Assembly: GCA_001804705.1 (NCBI GenBank)
Contig: MHAY01000086.1
Location: 1-32,350, forward strand
DNA length: 32,350 nucleotides
Direction: 5' to 3'
From: Ignavibacteria bacterium RIFOXYC2_FULL_35_21
GTDB lineage: Bacteria > Bacteroidota > Ignavibacteria > Kapaibacteriales > UBA2268
Shown: piece by piece, positions 238-31,488 of the stretch
Layout: the number at the start of each line of letters is the position of its first letter
Position numbering within the stretch: position 1 is the first letter of the stretch
Notes under the pieces: model-generated
What the model was told of the DNA's origin: nothing
Seen by the model: only the letters and a program-made list of their open reading frames with translations
Database searches by the model: none
Position numbers and translations under genes: made by a program

Positions 238-3200
238 TATCTCCCAATAATAATTGCCTGTCTTTGTAAGGCAACACCATTTGTTATAATAACAAAATAA
301 ATACCTGGCGGAATTTCTGCAGAAAGCCAATTAATCCGGTGATTACCCTGTAACAGGTATCCTGAAAATATGTCATCCATCTTCTCTCCGAAGAGATTAA
401 ATATACTAATTTCTACATGGGAATCAAATTGTAAGTTTATATCGAAAACAACCGATTCACTCGCAGGATTCGGGTAACTATGCAATGTGAACATTCCTTG
501 ATTATTTGTCTCATCGACAGTGCTGAACTTATCGGTGGTGAATTTCCATGTATTTGACCAATCTGTCGTTCCATCAGGATTAGATGCACTGACATGCCAG
601 TAGTAATCGGACTCAAGGCCAAGATTAACATAGTCAATCGTTGTGTTTGATAAGGAAGTCTCATCAATTATCTTAGTTGCAAAATTATTACTTTGAGAAA
701 GCTGTACATTATAACTTTCTGCACCCTGAACAGACTGCCAGTTTAGCTTGCCATAGTTCTGAATTTTTATTGCATTTTGTGCCGGAGAAATCAGTGAAGG
801 AGTTGCAATCCTTGTTGAGAAATCCCATACTTCTGACCAATCGCCGGTTCCTTCTGTATTCTTAGCGGCGACTCTCCAGTAATATTTTGTATTATTTTCA
901 AGATTTGAGTAATTGTAATTATTTTCAGTGATATTTGAATCATTAACAACAAGGGGGCTAAAATTCGTTGATTTGGAAATCTGCAATTTATAATTCAATG
1001 CACCGGTAACCTGCTCCCACCTAAGTGTGCCGTTTATGTTTACAAAAACATTTCCGTCCGGCGGAGCTGATAAATTTGGGGCTGACAATGAAGTCGAAAA
1101 ACTCCACAGAGCAGACCAATTGCTCCATGAGGAGCCTATCTTAGCCCTGATTTGCCAGTAGTACCGTGTATTTTTTGTCAGGTTGCTGTAATCAAAGGAA
1201 TTTGTAGTCAATGTAGAATCATTAATCACAGTAGTACTGAAGTTCTGAGATGTTGATACCCTTATATGATATAAACCCACTCCGGACATTTCTCCCCAGC
1301 GGAATTCCAGGCTATTTGGAATATTGCTTGCATTGTTTGGCGGATACATCAATAATGGAGCATCGAATGATGTGGCAAAATTCCAGGTCGATGACCATTC
1401 ACCTGTGTTATTTGCAGACTTGCCGCTGACTTTCCAGTAATAGGTACGGTTCTTGTCCAATCCGCTGTAATTATAGCTTGTACCCGTCAACGTGGAATCA
1501 TCAATTATCGTAGATGAGAAATCCTGTTCTTCGGATAGCATCAATTTGTATAAAGCAGCTCCGGCAATAGCATTCCATCTAAATGTTCCGCTGTCGGGGA
1601 CACCGGTTGCAAAATTATTTGGTGAAACGAGAATAGGAGGAGCAAGCTGGGTTGTGAAATCCATTGCCGAAGGCCAGTTCCCGTCACCATCTGAATTATG
1701 TGCAGAAACCCGCCAGTAATATTTTGTATTATTATTCAATCCGCTGTAACTTTGATTTATACCTGAAATCCCTGTCTGGTCAATCGTAGTGGAACTAAAT
1801 GTAGAATCGGCAGAAACCTGTAAATTATAAGTCTGTGCCTGATTAACACCCAGCCATTGGAAAGAGCCGCTGTCCGATACTCCCGTTGAATGATTAGCAG
1901 GTGAAAGAAGAATGGGAGCTCCGAGAATCGTTGTGAAGTCCCATCGAGGCGACCAATTACTTGCATCATATATGCTTGTAGAACTCACTCTCCAAAAATA
2001 TACCGTACCAAATTCAAAACCTTGATATAAAAAGAATGTATCCGAAACATTCGACTGGTCATATATGTTAACCGAAAAGTCCGGGAATCCCGATATTTGC
2101 ACTCTGTAGCTAACAGCTATTGGGTTATTGTTCCAGGTTACGTAACCGCTTTCGGAAACTCTTTTTTCATGGTTTGAAGGCGAGTACAAAGTCGGTGGCC
2201 CAACTATTGTAGAAAAATTCCATGCATTTGACCATTGGCTCGTACCACCGGGATTAGATGCATTAAGACGCCAATAATACCGAGTGCTGTAACTCAAACC
2301 ATCAACATCATAAGTTGTTCCAACTACATTTGATATATTCTTTATGATATTCGAGAAGTCGGCAGTGTTTGAAACCTGCAACCCATATGTATCGGCTCCG
2401 TAAACCGAAGACCAGCTTAGAGTCAGGCTTGTATCCAGAGAATGTGAATTATTTAACGGTGAGACAAGAACCGGGCTATCGAGTATGATGCGGAAATCCC
2501 ATGCAGATGACCAGCTACTGGTATCTATAGCAGTATGGGTTTTGATACGCCAATAATACCTGATTCCATGAGACAGAGGGGTTACAATCTGGTAAGTTGT
2601 ATCGGTCAAACCGGACAAATTTAATAATGGGGCAAAAAAATCCGCTTGGGTTGAAATCTGTAAATCGTAGGTTAATGCATCTGTGCTTCTGTACCATACC
2701 AAAAGGGGAGTAGTCGTTATACCATCGGCACCATTAGCGGGTAATTTAAGAATCGGAGGCAACACTCCGAATCCGATTTTAAATGATATGGTTGCACCTG
2801 CAGAGCTTACGTCATACAGAATTAAACCGCCTTCGGAACCATTGTACAGGAAGCAGGATGGATTCGTTTCATCGTTTATGGCAGTCCTTCCTACATCCGC
2901 ACTGTAGTGTGCCTGGCTTATATTTCCATTTGCACTCGGTGTACCATCCAATCTGTAAATATAAACTTCGTCGGGAGGGCCATCTGAGTTGCCATTGCCG
3001 CAGTCTGTCTTAATCCTATATACGAGCAAGCCCGAACCGGGAACCGAACTCTCAAAAGTTCCCGTTTTTCTCCTGTATTCAACGACAAAATATTCAGTAG
3101 CCGCATTAGGAGAATTAATTCTATAGCAATTATTTGTAGCCGATGTTAGAGGATTTAACTGATATGTGCCTGATGTAGAAATCAGCGGAATTGAAGTAAT

Positions 3201-4322
3201 CCAATTCCCATATTTATATTTCATAAAGGCTCCCATATGTTGGGGCGGGTCCATATCATATTCCATCAAATCCCAATACCCAACCGGAGTCTTTCCGTCA
3301 TATCCATAATGATATAAATCCGGAGCTCCGAATGTATGGAATATCTCATGGCTCAAAACACCCGCATCAACAACAGTTTGAAGCTGGAAATTATATTTCC
3401 ATACTACTTTACTGTTAATCGTAACATTGTAGGAAAATAAATCCCATTGATGGGGCCAGAGCAGGTCAGACCATCCACCTGGCGCACCATAAACAATAAA
3501 ACAGACATTATCAACAAACCCATTGCCATCATAATCAATGTTGAGCCCGGAAGGTATCTGAGATTTAACGGCATCTACAGCGTTTTTCAGCAGTGTATGT
3601 TCCCTATTTGTCCTTTCATTACTGCTGGTATAACCTATAGGATTGTTGACGGAGTGGTAAGGTTTATAATAATTCCTGACGTGGCTGTCCTGAAATGATA
3701 GTACTGTAGCACCTGGTATCGGGTAAAATGTTGAATTAATAGTTAAGGCATTGTAAGAGGCTTCGAGGTAATAGCTTTTCATCGAAGCACTGCCTGTTGA
3801 ATTGAACATATTTGTATAAGTGCTGACTGGGTCTGTAAACTCAGACTCACCATTGAACCTGATGAAAATTACAATGTTATTAATAGTGCCGCTGACTTGT
3901 ATGGTTTCGGATTTATCTTTTTTCCCGGGTTTTTGTGCAGCCTGATGAAATTGTTTAGCCTTTTCATAAATTTTTTCGGGAGCTATTGTCATCCATTTAT
4001 CAATCCCAAGTGTGTTTGGGTCAACCGTCCCCACGATTTTCTTGCTCGAGACAAGTTCTCCATTGATTTTTTCGGCATAAACATAGTATCCTGTTTTAGG
4101 GTCAGCCAAAATAGTATAGCCATCTTTGTCATGCAGCCAGTTGTAATGCTCATCCCCGCTTGCAAAGCAATGGATAATTGTTCCATCAGGTTGAGTTATA
4201 GTTTGTGGAACATTACGTAGATATGCAGCATTTGAAATAAAAAATGCAGCAATTAGTAAAAGTATAATATATGATGTAAATCTAATATGCCTGAATAAAC
4301 TTGAAGTAAAAAACATAATCAT
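237..4322 (-). CDS. M6 family metalloprotease with FN3-like repeats and T9SS sorting domain
   Basis: Predicted secreted zinc protease of the M6 (immune inhibitor A-like) family, 1361 residues from this start. Residue numbers here count from an upstream ATG at 4334. The chosen ATG at 4322 has GGGAG five bases upstream, while 4334 has no ribosome site; 4316 is also possible. A signal-peptide segment (about 16-37) is followed by a propeptide-like region and the catalytic domain. The zinc motif HEIFHTFGAPD is at about 329-339 and a Met-turn-like VGYWDLMEYD follows at about 351. Eight modules of about 90 residues then follow, each starting like P.L.SP.N and ending like YYWRV...W..W.FST. The C-terminal 85 residues (SYPNPASESV ... 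GIYFVII) are a T9SS type A sorting domain, so the protein is probably exported and surface-anchored or released. Substrate unknown. Confidence 0.9.
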   Translation of the reverse strand: MIMFFTSSLFRHIRFTSYIILLLIAAFFISNAAYLRNVPQTITQPDGTIIHCFASGDEHYNWLHDKDGYTILADPKTGYYVYAEKINGELVSSKKIVGTVDPNTLGIDKWMTIAPEKIYEKAKQFHQAAQKPGKKDKSETIQVSGTINNIVIFIRFNGESEFTDPVSTYTNMFNSTGSASMKSYYLEASYNALTINSTFYPIPGATVLSFQDSHVRNYYKPYHSVNNPIGYTSSNERTNREHTLLKNAVDAVKSQIPSGLNIDYDGNGFVDNVCFIVYGAPGGWSDLLWPHQWDLFSYNVTINSKVVWKYNFQLQTVVDAGVLSHEIFHTFGAPDLYHYGYDGKTPVGYWDLMEYDMDPPQHMGAFMKYKYGNWITSIPLISTSGTYQLNPLTSATNNCYRINSPNAATEYFVVEYRRKTGTFESSVPGSGLLVYRIKTDCGNGNSDGPPDEVYIYRLDGTPSANGNISQAHYSADVGRTAINDETNPSCFLYNGSEGGLILYDVSSAGATISFKIGFGVLPPILKLPANGADGITTTPLLVWYRSTDALTYDLQISTQADFFAPLLNLSGLTDTTYQIVTPLSHGIRYYWRIKTHTAIDTSSWSSAWDFRIILDSPVLVSPLNNSHSLDTSLTLSWSSVYGADTYGLQVSNTADFSNIIKNISNVVGTTYDVDGLSYSTRYYWRLNASNPGGTSQWSNAWNFSTIVGPPTLYSPSNHEKRVSESGYVTWNNNPIAVSYRVQISGFPDFSVNIYDQSNVSDTFFLYQGFEFGTVYFWRVSSTSIYDASNWSPRWDFTTILGAPILLSPANHSTGVSDSGSFQWLGVNQAQTYNLQVSADSTFSSTTIDQTGISGINQSYSGLNNNTKYYWRVSAHNSDGDGNWPSAMDFTTQLAPPILVSPNNFATGVPDSGTFRWNAIAGAALYKLMLSEEQDFSSTIIDDSTLTGTSYNYSGLDKNRTYYWKVSGKSANNTGEWSSTWNFATSFDAPLLMYPPNNASNIPNSLEFRWGEMSGVGLYHIRVSTSQNFSTTVINDSTLTTNSFDYSNLTKNTRYYWQIRAKIGSSWSNWSALWSFSTSLSAPNLSAPPDGNVFVNINGTLRWEQVTGALNYKLQISKSTNFSPLVVNDSNITENNYNYSNLENNTKYYWRVAAKNTEGTGDWSEVWDFSTRIATPSLISPAQNAIKIQNYGKLNWQSVQGAESYNVQLSQSNNFATKIIDETSLSNTTIDYVNLGLESDYYWHVSASNPDGTTDWSNTWKFTTDKFSTVDETNNQGMFTLHSYPNPASESVVFDINLQFDSHVEISIFNLFGEKMDDIFSGYLLQGNHRINWLSAEIPPGIYFVIITNGVALQRQAIIIGR

Positions 4323-4334
4323 GCCAACTCCCAT

Positions 4335-4607
4335 TAATATGGCTTATATTTATTGAATTACTATTATTGTATTTATCAACCCCCTTTTTTTTATAAATTC
4401 AAAGTTTAAACGAATAGTAACTTCAATTATTGGTACACTTCCATTCTTTTTATTAATTTTTTCTACATAAAATTGTAAAAAAAAATATTTTGTTTTCAAA
4501 TAAGAAAGTTATACATTAATCGTCTGACGTAATGATATAGGAGAATTTAAACTCTGTGAGTTAAAGTTCATGACTGTTAAAATGAAAATAAAGTTAAATC
4601 AATTTTT
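4335..4607. promoter_or_regulatory. Divergent intergenic region between two T9SS protein genes
   Basis: About 270 bp of very AT-rich DNA between start codons that point outwards, so it must carry promoters for both flanking genes. I could not assign -35/-10 or Bacteroidota-type promoter boxes with confidence. A small inverted repeat (AACTC/GAGTT) lies near 4550-4562. Confidence 0.4.
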
Positions 4608-7600
4608 ATGAGAAATTTATACTCGATTATAAAAATATTAATTTTAACTTTTCTTCCTCTGGCTTCTTATTCGCAGTCATGGAATAAAGTAAGTTCTATA
4701 CCTCCACCCTACAGTTTTAACTATTGGCTGGATGTTTACTTTTTACCTTCTAATCCTAATTACGGTTGGATTTGCGGGTTTAGCGGACAGGTATTAAGAA
4801 CAACAGACAGAGGTAAAACCTGGGCAGGGGCAGTTGTCCCATTTGCCAACCAGCTTGAAAGTGTACATTTTTCATCAACAACAGTTGGCTATACTTCCGG
4901 AATGGATGGTATATTCAAATCAACAAATGGCGGTGTATCATGGGTTGATATTACACCTCCCAATGCCGGGTTGCTTTGGGGTAATTACTTTGTTGATCCG
5001 CTTTATGGTGTTACAGTTGGCGGCGGATGTGATGGAATACAAAAGTTCTTTCTTACAACGGATGGAGGAGCTAATTGGTCTCTTTATACGGATTCGGTAC
5101 CAAACAGCGGTATGGCTGATGTAATACTTTATTCCTCAAATGGGCTTGGGTATGCGTCGAGCAGTGGAAAAATCTGGATAACAACAAATGGCGGTGCAAA
5201 CTGGCAAATTCATAGTTTATCAGGTCCTGAATACTGGCAGGAAGAAATAACAAATGTCGGCAATTCCTTTCTTGTCCCTTTTGGAGGGACAACATGTATT
5301 GGTGCAGGAAACAATGGCGGTATGCACTTCTCGACAGATAACGGATCAACCTGGAATAGTTATACAACAGGTATTCCAATGTTCGGTGCTTTTCTCATCG
5401 ACCAAAGAACAGGCTGGGTTTGTGGCTATAACCGTGAAGTTTATTATACAACAGATGGCGGACAGACTTGGATAAAGCGTAACTGCGGAATTGACAGAGG
5501 GCACCTCGATGATTTATGGTTCATAACTCCAAACGAAGGATGGGTAGTCGGCGAAGGAGTTTATTACATAGGCCCCGACAATCAGGTTGTTACTAAAATG
5601 AACATGGTTTATGGCGATGTCTGCATCCCGGGTTCAATGTATGACACTTTATGGGTCAAGAATCATTCTTTCAATAATGCTGTGATGGCAGCAACAAACA
5701 TTTATGGTGTTAATTTCGAGGATTTCACTATTGTATATCCTCCCGGAGGTTTTGCCCTGCCTGCATGTGATTCACAAATGATTATTGTGCGTTTCATGCC
5801 TCTGAAGGCAGGTGATAATAAAAATGCTAAGCTTGGTATAAATGTTATTGGTGGAAATAATTTCACAATAGACCTTCTTGGCGATGCCAAAGAAAATACT
5901 GCTATTCCCGAAGACTCTTTACTCGAAATTAATCCCGCTTATTGCGGCATGAATACGGTTGATTCATTGCAATGGACTGCTTCCAGTCCTGATAACTCAA
6001 TTATTACAATTCAAAAAGTAGAGGGAAGTTATGAAATAGTATCGGAATCACCGCTCCCGATAAATGTTTATTCCAGTGGCGTATATACTAATTTTTCTGC
6101 TTCTCCTTCCGATACAGGGTGGTTTACATCCCGGTTTAGATTTACACTGTCGCCCTGCTCAAAAGATACATTCATCACAGTGAGAGCTTATGGAGTTTCG
6201 CCGATAATAACTGCAGAAGACAGAATTATGTTTAACCTAAATTGCAAATTATCAGAATTTGATACAATACCTGTTTTTAATACAGGTAACAGCGAACTGA
6301 TTATTTCGGATTATAATTTTAATTCCGCAAACACTGCTTTTTCGTATATAGGCTGGATTAGTGGCAGAGCCTTACCCTTAAAGATTAATCCATTTGAAGC
6401 TGATTCATTGATTATAAAATTTGACCCCCCGATAAGCGGTTCACATAGTGCCGTGTTAAACCTGATTAATAATGATTCAACTTCGATTCGTGGGAGAAAG
6501 AATCCATTTTATATCTCATTTAACGGTATCGTTACCTCGACTGATGTTAAACCAAAAGATACTGTTTTTGTGCTGGGGGATATTTGCCTTGGAGATTCTG
6601 TCATACTAAATGTACCGGTGAAAAACAAAGGTGATTTAACAGCAACATTGCAAAATCCAATATATGATAACAGTGTTTATAGAATATCTGTCCAGGGGCA
6701 ATCATTCCCATTCCAGATAAAAACAAATGATTCGGTTAATTGCCGTATCATATTTAAACCTGATACTACACGACAATACGATGATACAATTTATATCAGC
6801 ACCCTGCCATGTAATGAACTGATGAAGATTATTGTTAATGCAAACTGCGTTGATTCATACATCACTGCTGAACCCGATTCAATTACAGGTGTGATTCAAA
6901 CAGGCCTGCCTTTGAGGAAAGCCGTAACCGTTCATGCTTTTGGCAATATTCCAATGAGTATCACTGATATTAAATTGAATCCTACACAACTCGATTGGAC
7001 AATTAATACATCTCCGACACTGCCATATAGCATAATAGCAGGCGATAGCGTGGTTTTTACTTTTGATTTCATCTCAACCAAAGACACTGTTCTGAACAGC
7101 AGGCTGGTATTCAGTCTCGATAGTTATTGCCCGATGGAAACAAGTCTGCCTGTTAATATATTGAGTCACAGTGTCTGGCTTTTGACTTCTGCCGATTCGG
7201 TAGGTTTTGGGTATAGTAAATGCACTGCAGGTATTATATACGATACCATTACAATTACAAATGCAGGTTCTATTGAGGATACGTTAACCATTCTTGAGAT
7301 ACGGCCTTCAGGTTTGCCTTTCAGTATTGTTAATATGCCTGTTCTACCTCACATCATGCCTTCAGGTTCAGTTGAAAATTATATTATAGCATATGATTCT
7401 TCCATTGAAGGACTTTTTACAGGAACCCTTGTGATTGATTCAAAAAATCTGAGAGGATTGTCAATTAATCTGCCTTTGTCCGGAGAATTCAGGACTGTTC
7501 AAACAAAGCCCGATGCTGTCAACTTTGACTATTCAAATGTCGAGCCCTGCAATGATACAATTGTTAAAACATTTTATATTAAAAACACAGGCACTCTTGC

Positions 7601-20059: not shown

Positions 20060-20205
20060 TTTCCCCCTTTTCTAAAGAGCCCGTCCTGAGCGAAGTCGAA
20101 GGGGGGATTCAGGGGGATTACTAATTTAATATATCCTTAATGAATAAAATGGATAATTTCTATTAAAAAATCCCTCTTTTATCTCCCTTTAATAAAGGGA
20201 GAAAC
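20060..20205. repeat. Palindromic-repeat element with inverted ends, left end interrupted
   Basis: Starts with a type 1 repeat (TTTCCCCCTTTTCTAAAG) that is split by about 23 bp reading like AGCCCGTCCTGAGCGAAGTC, then resumes GGGGGATTCAGGGGGATTAC. After an AT-rich middle it ends with a type 2 repeat at 20170-20205 (ATCCCTCTTTTATCTCCC..AAAGGGAGAAAC), which is the type 1 repeat in reverse orientation. Total about 146 bp. Confidence 0.7.
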
Positions 20206-20209
20206 CCTC

Positions 20210-20244
20210 TTTCCCACTTAATAAAGGGGGATTCAGGGGGTTGT
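20210..20244. repeat. Single type 1 repeat abutting the Nudix gene stop
   Basis: TTTCCCACTTAATAAAGGGG followed by GATTCAGGGGGTTG. It ends within a base or two of the stop codon of the leftward Nudix gene, where its hairpin could affect 3' end formation. Confidence 0.6.
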
Positions 20245-20841: not shown

Positions 20842-20964
20842 TTTCCCCCTTTCCTAAAGGGGGACAAAGGGGGATTATTCAAATCTAACAAAATCTTTCA
20901 ATGAACTTTGGATATATTTTAACAATATAATCCCTCTTAATCTCCCTTTAATAAAGGGAGAAAC
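20842..20964. repeat. Palindromic-repeat element with inverted ends, 123 bp
   Basis: Type 1 repeat at 20842-20878 (TTTCCCCCTTTCCTAAAGGG) and inverted partner type 2 at 20930-20964. The AT-rich centre contains TTGGATATATTTT (20908-20920), also present inside the element at 28661-28826, so similarity extends beyond the ends. It lies in the 299-bp gap between the Nudix gene and a VWA gene. Confidence 0.75.
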
Positions 20965-21018
20965 AAATTTCAGAATAGCAGTATAAATTTCATTCGTAAT
21001 TCGTAATTAATAAAATGA

Positions 21019-28660: not shown

Positions 28661-28826
28661 TTTCCCCCTTTACTAAAGGGGGATTCAAGGGGGATTACAG
28701 ATACAATAAATCCTTTAACAATTCCCCTTGCGGTATTACTATTAAAAAGAACAATTAACCTAATAATTTGGATATATTTTTATTGAAAAAATCCCTCTTA
28801 AATCTCCCTTTTCCAAAGGGAGAAAC
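28661..28826. repeat. Palindromic-repeat element with inverted ends, 166 bp
   Basis: Type 1 at 28661-28697 (CCCCCTTT ACT AAAGGGGG, then ATTCAAGGGGGATTAC) and type 2 at 28791-28826 in reverse orientation (CTCCCTTT TCC AAAGGGAG). Each end is an 8-bp hairpin with a 3-nt loop. The centre contains TTGGATATATTTT and AAAAGAACAATTAACC; the second is shared with 29331-29430. It occupies the gap upstream of the VWA pair. Confidence 0.8.
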
Positions 28827-28868
28827 TCAATTTCCCCCTTTACTAAAGGGTTCGGGGGATTACTAATT
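28791..28868. repeat. Direct repeat left of the DUF559 gene
   Basis: 78 bp consisting of a type 2 repeat, the linker TCAA, a type 1 repeat and ATTACTAATT. It recurs at 29291-29370, exactly 500 bp further on. The only difference is two extra G in the right copy. Confidence 0.85.
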
Positions 28869-28900
28869 CAATAAATCCAATAACTTTTACTTCCATTTTA

Positions 28901-29266
28901 TTAGTTTTCGGATACATTAACCACATGATTATAAATTTCTTCAATCACATTCCTTAAATTTCTTCTAACTTCTTTATTTTGGAACCGTAATATTTTCAAT
29001 CCTAAATTTTTAAAATATTCATCTCTGACAATATCTTTTTCTTTTCCTTCTTCAGTATAATGCTGACCACCATCCAATTCAATTATTAGTTTTGCTTTAG
29101 GGCAATAAAAATCAACAATGTAATTCCCAATGGTTCTTTGCCTGTAAAATTGAGCTTCTCCAATTTGCTTCATTCTAAGTTTTGACCATAAAATTATCTC
29201 TTCTCCCGTCATATTAGTTCTAAGGAGCCGAGAAAAATGCTTTAATTTGGTATTATAATTAAGCAT
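28901..29266 (-). CDS. DUF559-family endonuclease-like protein inside a repeat-bounded unit
   Basis: 121-residue protein of the DUF559 family, a Vsr-like PD-(D/E)XK nuclease fold. The family pattern is clear: N-terminal RLLRTNMTGEEIILWSKLR, then FYRQRTIGNYIVDFYCPKAK, IIELDGGQH and the C-terminal GLKILRFQNKEVRRNL. Likely catalytic residues are D52, E63, D65 and H69. The length is normal for a stand-alone member. It is transcribed alone and sits between an inverted repeat pair (28831-28866 and 29291-29326). Biochemical function is not established for most family members; a role in mobilising or maintaining the surrounding repeats is inference from position. Confidence 0.88.
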   Translation of the reverse strand: MLNYNTKLKHFSRLLRTNMTGEEIILWSKLRMKQIGEAQFYRQRTIGNYIVDFYCPKAKLIIELDGGQHYTEEGKEKDIVRDEYFKNLGLKILRFQNKEVRRNLRNVIEEIYNHVVNVSEN

Positions 29267-29290
29267 AATATGGTTATTAATTTATTTAAA

Positions 29291-29370
29291 ATCCCTCTTA
29301 AATCTCCCTTTTCCAAAGGGAGAAACTCAATTTCCCCCTTTACTAAAGGGGGTTCGGGGGATTACTAATT
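29291..29370. repeat. Direct repeat right of the DUF559 gene
   Basis: 80-bp partner of 28791-28868: type 2 repeat, TCAA, type 1 repeat, ATTACTAATT. The type 2 parts at 28791, 29291 and 29395 are identical over 36 bp. Confidence 0.85.
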
Positions 29371-29430
29371 AAAAGAACAATTAACCAAAAATAAATCCCT
29401 CTTAAATCTCCCTTTTCCAAAGGGAGAAAC
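29331..29430. repeat. Palindromic-repeat element with inverted ends, 100 bp
   Basis: The shortest element of the family here: type 1 at 29331-29366, a centre of about 28 bp containing AAAAGAACAATTAACC, and type 2 at 29395-29430. Its right end lies three bases from the stop codon of the OmpA-type gene, so it may also form that transcript's 3' end. Confidence 0.8.
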
Positions 29431-29433
29431 TAC

Positions 29434-31488
29434 TTACTTACTCAATATCGGGGTTTCTATAACAATATTAACTGTTCTGTTAAAGAAACGGCCTTCGGGC
29501 AAATCGTTGTCATATATCAGTACCTCGCCAAGTCCTTTTGCCTGCCTGGGGTCAATACCCAATGCACGTGCTATGTTTTCCGCTCTTCTTTGAGATAATG
29601 ACAAATTCAAGTCAACATCACCCATTCTGTCGGTATATCCTTCAATCTTAACATTAGAGTTCTTTTCCAGTACACTTTTAGCAATGCTTATAATATGTCT
29701 GTGTTCCTTTGTCAATTCGGCAGAATTAAACGGAAACGAAATGAAACTGAATCTTGAAATTTCTTTATCACTTAGAGTCAGGTCCTCCATTTTTCTCTTT
29801 TTCGTCAACTGTTCGATTGGTAATTCCTGAGTTGGAGATTCCCACAGTTTATTGTCATTGTCAGTGATTTCGAGTTTATATTTCAAAGCCTCATCAAATT
29901 TCGGAATAAATTCTTCCTCTTTTTCAATGTCCCAGTCAACGTTAGGTTCAACGGGCCCTTCCCCCTGGAAAATCTTTAGTTCTCCGACGCTTTGCGAGGT
30001 TACAATTTCCCACCCGGCAACACCTATTTCGGCATTTACTTTAGTTTTAAAACGAATGACAGGAGGATTTGTCTTGATTACAAGCTCATATACGGTTATT
30101 GGCTCGAATATATCCGGATAATTGGCATCCATTTCTACCCTCATATTTTCCTGAGCCCCGTCAGGGTCTGTAGGATTAGACGGCAAATCAGGAAGATTCC
30201 TGGCTTTGACAATTAACCTGCTCGGGTCAATTCCCCATTCGCTGATGAGGAAGCTCTTCACTCTTTCTGCACGGCGTGTTGATAAACCTGTATTACCTTT
30301 TTCAATTCCTGCATCAGAATTACATCCGGTTAATGTCAATACGGCATTTGGATTTTTAAGCATTCTCTTTCCGAGAATATTGAGAATCTGATAATAAACA
30401 TTAATCGTGCTTAAATTAAACAATGCTTTATCGTCATTTTTGAAGTTTGCTTTTTCTTCAGCAGACATTTTTTTATAGCTGATTGGAATGGCAGAAGAAT
30501 TTTCATCAAAGAAAATATATTTCAGGAAGGGCTGTAACCTCGTCGAGGTAAACTCTTCTATAATCATCTTGGAAACTTCGGATTCCGTACTGTCTTTTTC
30601 GAGCGAAACAGCATGAATTGTCGCATCCAGCAGAGGCACTTCCGGCGGTGGTGGCGGCGGCGGAAGCGGCGGCGGCGGCGGTGGCAACGGCGGCGGCTTC
30701 GGAGGAATAACTTTTCTCGGTGCATATTTTATTCCGATTGAGCCGCTGAAAGTATTAATTGACCATCTTTTCTCAACTTTTGATACATTAGTAATACCTA
30801 TGCCATAATAAACTTCAGGTACAATAAACCATTCGTAAGATGCATTAATCGGCAGGTCATAACTTAATCCTGCTAATAGGGCAACTTCAAGTAATGATGC
30901 ATCAGGAATATCTCCACTGAATTCATGTCTTATTCTTTTGCCGCCATCTAAAGAGTCAGGGAAAACACCCCATGATGCGAGTAGCACTTCTTTCTGACTA
31001 AATCTTTTCTGCATTACATAACCAGCTCTTAATCCCGCATGAGCCCTGAACTGGTCGCCTAATCTTATATTTAATTGCGGTATAAAAGCAATTGAAGATA
31101 TTGAAGCATCAACAGAATGTTCAAACTTTTCCTCGCTTCCGATAAAATTTGGAGGCGGTCCGGGTATAAAAATCGGTTCTTCTTTAGAAAGCAATCCACC
31201 AAGCATAGTATATTGAGCCTTGAAAGATAACTCATAAGTTTCAGCTATCGGAAAGCTAAAGTATAATCCTGCATTAATACCTATTCCGTTACCAGTTTCA
31301 TATCTTGGACAACAACTGGGAATATCCGGCAGTTTTGCAAAATCCGCCATGTGCATGTTATAATTAATACCTGCGTACAACCCGAAATAATCCCGTGTCT
31401 GGAACGGGGTTTCTGCGTATTTTTGAGCTAATAAACAACTGCTAAAAGCTATAAAGACAATAAATTTTTTCAATATTTTTCGAAACAT
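29434..31488 (-). CDS. Outer membrane protein with beta-barrel and two OmpA-like domains
   Basis: 684-residue envelope protein. A signal peptide (about 1-21) is followed by an outer-membrane beta-barrel of about 225 residues (about 30-256, alternating strands such as FGLYAGINYNM and VEVALLAGLSYDL-like segments). A proline-rich linker at 262-283 (nearly all Pro, encoded by CCG/CCT-type repeats) follows. The first OmpA-like domain is at about 322-455 (YIFFDENSSAIP, LTGCNSDAG, LSTRRAERVKSFL). A middle segment follows, then a second OmpA-like domain at about 575-680 (FPFNSAELTKEH, IEGYTDRMGDVDLNLSLSQRRAENI). OmpA-like domains bind peptidoglycan, so the protein should tie the outer membrane to the wall. 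Two such domains in one chain are less usual. AGGGA lies eight bases before the ATG. Confidence 0.9.
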   Translation of the reverse strand: MFRKILKKFIVFIAFSSCLLAQKYAETPFQTRDYFGLYAGINYNMHMADFAKLPDIPSCCPRYETGNGIGINAGLYFSFPIAETYELSFKAQYTMLGGLLSKEEPIFIPGPPPNFIGSEEKFEHSVDASISSIAFIPQLNIRLGDQFRAHAGLRAGYVMQKRFSQKEVLLASWGVFPDSLDGGKRIRHEFSGDIPDASLLEVALLAGLSYDLPINASYEWFIVPEVYYGIGITNVSKVEKRWSINTFSGSIGIKYAPRKVIPPKPPPLPPPPPPLPPPPPPPEVPLLDATIHAVSLEKDSTESEVSKMIIEEFTSTRLQPFLKYIFFDENSSAIPISYKKMSAEEKANFKNDDKALFNLSTINVYYQILNILGKRMLKNPNAVLTLTGCNSDAGIEKGNTGLSTRRAERVKSFLISEWGIDPSRLIVKARNLPDLPSNPTDPDGAQENMRVEMDANYPDIFEPITVYELVIKTNPPVIRFKTKVNAEIGVAGWEIVTSQSVGELKIFQGEGPVEPNVDWDIEKEEEFIPKFDEALKYKLEITDNDNKLWESPTQELPIEQLTKKRKMEDLTLSDKEISRFSFISFPFNSAELTKEHRHIISIAKSVLEKNSNVKIEGYTDRMGDVDLNLSLSQRRAENIARALGIDPRQAKGLGEVLIYDNDLPEGRFFNRTVNIVIETPILSK

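Follow-up and report, generated by a model that had tools for sequence, protein, structure and literature searches.

A DUF559 nuclease gene between repeats of a putative triplex-forming type: evidence for a recurrent, possibly mobile gene-repeat unit in bacteria

Why does a small nuclease gene sit between inverted repeats, with gene-less copies of the same arrangement on either side of it? This question is raised by a locus in Ignavibacteria bacterium RIFOXYC2_FULL_35_21 (assembly GCA_001804705.1, contig MHAY01000086.1, positions 1 to 32,350; "the window" hereafter). The initial annotation described three repeat-bounded units end to end, the middle one holding a complete DUF559 gene, and proposed a REP/RAYT-like system with a DUF559 enzyme in place of the HUH transposase. 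Our analysis confirms the arrangement as described. The proposed reading is supported, and the conditions named in advance as speaking against it are fulfilled only in part. Three points had not been recognized: the repeats share a triplex grammar, they match a known orphan repeat family (BoxC/PIT), and the unit also lies in frame inside other genes.

The repeat block and its gene

The three units are located at 28661-28826, 28831-29326 and 29331-29430 and are joined by TCAA. The middle unit contains an ORF of 121 aa on the minus strand (28901-29266), which matches DUF559 (PF04480) with E=8.1e-35 and has no Y1_Tnp match at E<=0.001. A 63-nt core is identical at 28788 and 29288, i.e. 500 nt apart, and by reading the longer copies differ by two G. 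In contrast to the 36-bp palindrome of the initial annotation, each repeat is a hairpin of about 20 nt with a G-rich tail, and the two ends of a unit are different variants (CCCCCTTT type left, CTCCCTTT type right). The tails of the gene unit point inward, so its two ends are inverted.

Unit 1 is bounded by a left repeat at 28661-28696 (plus; 0 triad mismatches at 28663-28664, exact pattern match at 28664) and an inverted right repeat of the CTCCCTTT variant at 28788-28826 (minus; 0 mismatches, minus 28823). The left repeat of the gene unit (28831-28864, plus) lacks two G in the stem and is not detected by the perfect-stem scan, whereas its inverted right repeat (29288-29326, minus) fits with 0 mismatches at minus 29323. 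In unit 3, the left repeat (29331-29365, plus) and the right repeat (29392-29430, minus) fit with 0 mismatches at 29334 and minus 29427, respectively. Elsewhere in the window, a further partial copy of the gene-less unit is found at 20143-20242 (80% over 100 nt; fit 0 on minus at 20202) and a further inverted pair without a gene at 20842-20971 (plus 20844 and minus 20961, fit 0). In the own genome, a 33-nt pattern with up to 3 mismatches, which also recovers the three right repeats of the block, gives 23 matches and the reversed control 0; a looser exact pattern gives 63 against 0, although places with an ambiguous gap length can be counted more than once. A second DUF559 gene of the same genome (locus L009) lies between inverted copies of a different hairpin repeat. 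By reading, about 45 nt from the end of the gene upstream of it recur on the far side of the unit (about 545-592 and 1874-1919), as if duplicated on insertion. A search of Rfam gave 6 matches up to E=1, none near a gathering score.

A comparison of related strains for empty sites had been suggested beforehand, and such sites exist. In one same-genus genome the block is present at the same place as gene-less unit, gene unit and gene-less unit. In two others the aligned neighbouring regions are separated by 22 and 44 nt, and window 28662-29446 has no counterpart. The closest DUF559 homologs of these two genomes (L155, 1478-1837; L156, 1353-1736) lie elsewhere, show no hairpin repeat and have lost the conserved E63 and H69, which suggests decay or domestication; one of them scores a direct repeat that is no triplex hairpin. 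For dispersed single repeats, only the first 6 kb of one 20-kb region were inspected closely, and no clean single-repeat empty site was seen there.

The window protein carries conserved E23, D52, E63, D65, H69 and D78. Of the conserved catalytic residues, E23, D52, E63, H69 and D78 are invariant in 34 of 34 sequences, and in a larger set E63 is kept in 157/159 and H69 in 156/159; their role was not tested here. The AF2 model (pLDDT 87.6) was compared to solved structures using Foldseek and matches 3hrl (1.3e-5), the homing endonuclease I-Bth0305I (1.3e-3) and, weakly, Vsr and TnsA (both about 0.45). The predicted fold is that of a Vsr-like PD-(D/E)XK nuclease.

Association of DUF559 genes with triplex-type repeats

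Whether DUF559 genes lie inside repeat pairs more often than other positions had been proposed as a test, and repeats flank DUF559 genes far more often than control ORFs. Of 113 DUF559 loci, long ORFs included, 108 were scorable; a shared inverted repeat (score >=30) occurs in 56, against 11 of 514 random placements. With flanks of other ORFs as control, a score >=34 occurs in 41 of 101 loci against 2 of 149 non-adjacent ORFs (13 of 276 when ORFs next to DUF559 are counted). In regions from a phylum-wide search, paired repeats at >=36 occur in 25 of 39 stand-alone genes against 6 of 156 control ORFs. These 40 stand-alone regions (39 scorable) and 20 long-ORF regions were taken from the top of an E-value list, skipping several at contig ends, and not at random; most other loci were chosen as best matches to the window protein or to the family. 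Over the stand-alone genes with flanks, 114 of 154 have a pair at >=30, some of which are AT-rich matches and no hairpin, and 40 have none. Several of the repeats are long tandem arrays, for example of 216, 321 and 185 nt. In two loci (L094 and L096) the downstream repeat is read into the DUF559 protein as its last residues (PPSPPFSKGGGV).

The repeats differ widely in sequence between loci, but most fit a common grammar: a 5' pyrimidine arm, a purine arm, and a third block that mirrors the purine arm with G over G and A or T over A. Scored with perfect 8-nt stems and at most one triad mismatch, this motif occurs beside 102 of 151 stand-alone DUF559 genes (48 on both sides), 5 of 139 control ORFs, 0 of 22 RAYT loci and 1 of 151 shuffled flanks. 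From 177 genes, 18 had been dropped as long, short or broken, and 8 of the remaining 159 as having a flank under 150 nt; repeated loci were removed, so the window gene itself is not in the set (its ortholog is); it has motifs on both sides. The scoring was not blind, as the grammar had been noticed on some of these loci before; the plasmid-borne and Neisseria loci described below came afterwards. Near-duplicates remain, but after removing proteins at least 70% identical the count is still 71 of 111. Of the 133 loci with any such hairpin, 31 lack the third block, while in control ORFs 5 of 6 hairpins have it, so the third block is a trait of these hairpins wherever they lie. Taking the first hairpin of each locus, its own tail fits exactly in 77 of 130 and within one mismatch in 90 of 130. 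In sharp contrast, tails swapped between unlike hairpins fit in 0.7% and 16.0%, respectively, and shuffled tails within one mismatch in 9.3%. So the tail is adjusted to the stem. Folding of the strand into a triplex was not measured in this study; it has been shown for the E. coli motif in vitro but is not supported as stable in vivo (PMC4666352).

These data also bear on two alternatives. In the first, strong hairpins only insulate a toxic nuclease gene as terminators that keep it weakly expressed, with selection keeping any hairpin there; hairpins often lie within about 150 nt of the gene. However, the third block is not needed for a terminator yet covaries with the stem, repeats inside reading frames (see below) cannot be terminators, and many dispersed copies lie elsewhere; we consider this scenario very unlikely. 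Ownership of the repeats by RAYT (HUH) transposases of the same genomes, with DUF559 as a bystander, is improbable as well. Y1_Tnp matches were found in 14 of 16 genomes checked, but RAYT loci have their own paired repeats (20/22) and none has the triplex motif (0/22). Of the 23 RAYT loci 22 were scorable; two RAYT loci retrieved from the own genome were left out, one because of masked bases. No CCCCCTTT hairpin is present in five RAYT loci of the own genome, where RAYT genes (L253, L254) are flanked by their own, unrelated palindromic repeats, so several repeat systems coexist. In two genomes with repeats and DUF559 (G377 and G361) no Y1_Tnp match was found, although the search can miss genes.

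Repeat and protein vary together. Among 4107 cross-phylum pairs, with phylum labels assigned from record titles, protein identity and repeat similarity correlate with rho 0.515 (0 of 500 permutations; largest permuted value 0.155). Pairs at 65% identity or more share a repeat at score >=34 in 79% (n=66), those at 30-35% in 0.5% (n=432). Within the own phylum the correlation is weaker (rho 0.197, 0 of 500). Transfer of the whole unit would give this result too, which is itself consistent with a travelling unit.

DUF559 genes in related genomes not associated with these repeats, or repeats equally abundant in genomes that lack any DUF559 gene, had been named in advance as observations against the proposal, and these conditions are fulfilled only in part. 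In the same 395 genomes, either of two repeat patterns occurs in 100, of which 76 have a DUF559 hit below 1e-20; of the other 295 genomes, 83 do. The 24 exceptions include one genome (G131) with 6 pattern matches and no hit, while another (G093) has 9 matches (7 places) and only a weak hit. The genome lists were compiled from the search outputs, no tree was used, and neither these counts nor the other association tests are corrected for shared ancestry. Absence of a hit is soft evidence, as PF04480 was not detected in the E. coli control genome although K-12 carries ycjD, which is a DUF559 gene.

The structure of these repeats is the one described by Holder et al. 2015 as intrastrand triplex motifs, earlier BoxC or PIT (PMC4666352). 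That study reports 23 copies of the E. coli motif in MG1655 and states that no activity providing mobility was found around the sites; a text search found no nuclease, DUF or YcjD in it. In E. coli K-12, a BoxC-like hairpin with tail lies between ycjD and fabI, on that side of ycjD only; it is assigned to BoxC by its structure and not from a table of sites, and its stem has a mismatch, so the strict scan misses it. The ycjD region matches in 3365 of 5426 E. coli genomes. The repeat persists in strains without ycjD: of 5105 matching records, 3364 match most of the query, leaving at least 1741 that match the BoxC part without ycjD. In 60 sampled rows, those with ycjD (39) have a mean of 3.38 other BoxC-like places and those without (21) of 1.76, but lineage explains this equally well and we do not use it as support.

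The solved relative 3hrl is NGO0050 of N. gonorrhoeae. In an N. gonorrhoeae record a DUF559 gene has such repeats downstream in a tandem array, fitting with 0 mismatches, and by reading a less perfect copy upstream; downstream of the Neisseria gene the hairpin motifs recur at a 281-nt period (L333, 1704-2400). In 16 plasmid-borne loci (16 of 39 matching records were examined) the motif is seen in only 6. Four cyanobacterial plasmid DUF559 genes (L320, L322, L327, L328) lie beside PglX or DUF1156 genes, and three of the four show no hairpin motif, so a defence-linked subgroup may exist. DUF559 relatives were also seen in 5 phage records, which were not pursued.

DUF559 in frame inside enzymes

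In 20 loci DUF559 lies in an ORF of 1027-1450 aa, and in each of them the domain sits inside the protein. The flanks of the whole ORF lack repeats (1/20), but the triplex motif lies inside the ORF within 350 nt of the domain in 14 of 20, on both sides in 7, so that these ORFs are no valid negative control; 6 of 20 show no motif. According to Pfam, the hosts are B12-dependent methionine synthase (MetH) in 7, type I restriction HsdR in 4, leucyl-tRNA synthetase in 3, Eco57I-type enzymes in 2, and one each of type ISP, N6/N4 methylase, UvrD helicase and methylmalonyl-CoA mutase. One HsdR gene (L247, HsdR-like ORF 2681-6691) carries both a GIY-YIG domain (aa 249-314) and a DUF559 domain (aa 441-545) between its own domains. 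Inserts read as protein (in two long ORFs, L251 and L233, and in MetH) show DUF559 plus short repeat-encoded linkers. No intein family was found at E<=1e-8 in the 20 ORFs; group I/II introns were not sought, and free-standing homing genes need neither intron nor intein.

In one genus, the MetH match continues with a gap of at most 15 nt in 20 of 22 genomes, while 2 of 22 carry about 136 extra residues with DUF559, and the following part of the protein is up to 97% identical to empty orthologs. A DNA alignment of 10 of these (2 occupied, 8 empty) shows inverted C/G-rich ends at the insert, whose stems are too short for the 8-nt scan. Insertion of the type made by insertion sequences or MITEs should leave a target-site duplication, but the flanks are too diverged in the window and the linker at MetH is variable, so our data give no answer either way on this point. 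MetH inserts form one clade from four families (support 0.948) and HsdR inserts one from three (0.991), the latter joined by two stand-alone genes (0.962). This looks like a site preference kept over transfer, or inheritance with loss, and patchy presence in host-gene clades fits the latter as well.

The in-frame inserts invite a homing scenario, in which the DUF559 gene is the selfish part: the nuclease cuts a specific empty site (a repeat array or a conserved gene linker), the gene is copied in by recombination, and the triplex repeats are landing pads or homology arms spread by something else. It is supported by the host-gene-specific clades across families, the patchy MetH insertion, I-Bth0305I as structural neighbour, the placement of a DUF559 gene among the EDxHD homing endonucleases (PMC9403480), and the near-identical direct repeats around the gene unit. 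However, triplex repeats accompany inserts inside genes too and repeat sequence tracks the protein, so the repeats seem to travel with the gene, and no other mobilizer of these repeats was found, though only RAYTs were tested. This scenario is possible but less likely than the one favoured below. A third possibility is a repair nuclease that deals with trouble caused by triplex or hairpin DNA (stalled forks, mismatches), with genes and repeats together because the unit is inherited or transferred together. The Vsr-like predicted fold, the action of the DUF559 protein VsrA in Caulobacter DNA damage (PMC12907096) and the link of triplex motifs to instability (PMC4666352) speak for it; but it explains neither in-frame insertion into MetH with empty orthologs nor why each lineage has its own repeat, and we regard it as unlikely.

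A candidate mobile unit and its closest known systems

Our favoured interpretation, which we hold with moderate confidence, is a small mobile unit: a Vsr-fold PD-(D/E)XK nuclease gene between inverted copies of an intrastrand-triplex repeat, with gene-less derivatives beside it. What our data demonstrate is the pairing of gene and repeat, the covariation of protein, stem and tail, and the presence or absence of whole units at fixed sites. The mechanism, in contrast, is our inference: the nuclease would recognize its own triplex/hairpin repeat or the empty target and nick or cut it, and repair would copy the unit, or the repeats alone, into the break; no cleavage, binding or movement has been shown. 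Each DUF559 lineage would have its own repeat family, as RAYTs have their REPs, but with an unrelated enzyme and a different DNA structure. We cannot tell homing from REP-like movement. In a broader hypothesis, about as likely as not, DUF559 nucleases with clade-specific triplex repeats are a widespread, undescribed class of mobile element that moves by nuclease-induced copying, invades intergenic sites and reading frames in frame, spreads gene-less repeats, and is the source of BoxC/PIT-type repeats in bacteria, including those of E. coli and Neisseria.

A nuclease that travels and covaries with triplex repeats makes the unexplained origin of this repeat family directly testable, and gives DUF559 proteins, mostly annotated as unknown or as loose Vsr relatives, a likely role. 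In-frame insertion into enzymes such as MetH and leucyl-tRNA synthetase would add a splicing-free way for a selfish nuclease to live inside important genes. Literature searches on DUF559 and COG2852, on REP or palindromes with nucleases, on boxC and triplex repeats, on Vsr with repeats, on the homing family and on in-frame palindromic elements, judged mostly by titles and the start of abstracts and limited to open-licence PMC papers, revealed no paper linking DUF559 to these repeats. One paper places a DUF559 gene in the EDxHD homing family, in a section on inteins (PMC9403480).

Vsr and the Caulobacter protein VsrA belong to the same superfamily. VsrA, a DUF559 protein, is required for the DNA damage response of a Caulobacter methylase mutant (PMC12907096); it is linked there to repair after cytosine methylation, and we saw no mention of repeats. 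BoxC/PIT elements share with the present repeats three consecutive triplex-forming blocks, many copies, an intergenic position in E. coli and frequent inverted pairs, but were described without any mobility gene (PMC4666352). Homing endonucleases of the EDxHD family (I-Bth0305I) have a related fold and the same patchy presence between relatives at one place of a conserved gene. Here, however, no intron or intein was seen, the domain stays as an in-frame insert, and it carries triplex repeats; cutting of the empty allele was not examined. Rickettsia palindromic elements (RPE) are palindromic mobile units inserted in frame inside metabolic genes (PMC10969869), but are about 150 bp, with no nuclease mentioned in the text we consulted, whereas here a nuclease domain is part of the insert. 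In REP/RAYT (TnpA-REP) systems, or REPtrons, a nuclease gene is flanked by palindromic repeats that are dispersed in the genome, each gene is tied to its own repeat family, and several can coexist in a genome (PMC6006769, PMC3733652). The DUF559 unit shares one gene per repeat family, flanked by that repeat, with dispersed copies. It differs by a PD-(D/E)XK instead of an HUH (Y1) enzyme and by the GT[AG]G foot, which lies within 10 nt 5' of the stem in only 2 of 338 motif matches at DUF559 loci (and in 2 of 9 overlapping matches in the window block, by reading at one copy in the outer flank), as well as by a third block that mirrors the stem and by units found in frame inside genes.
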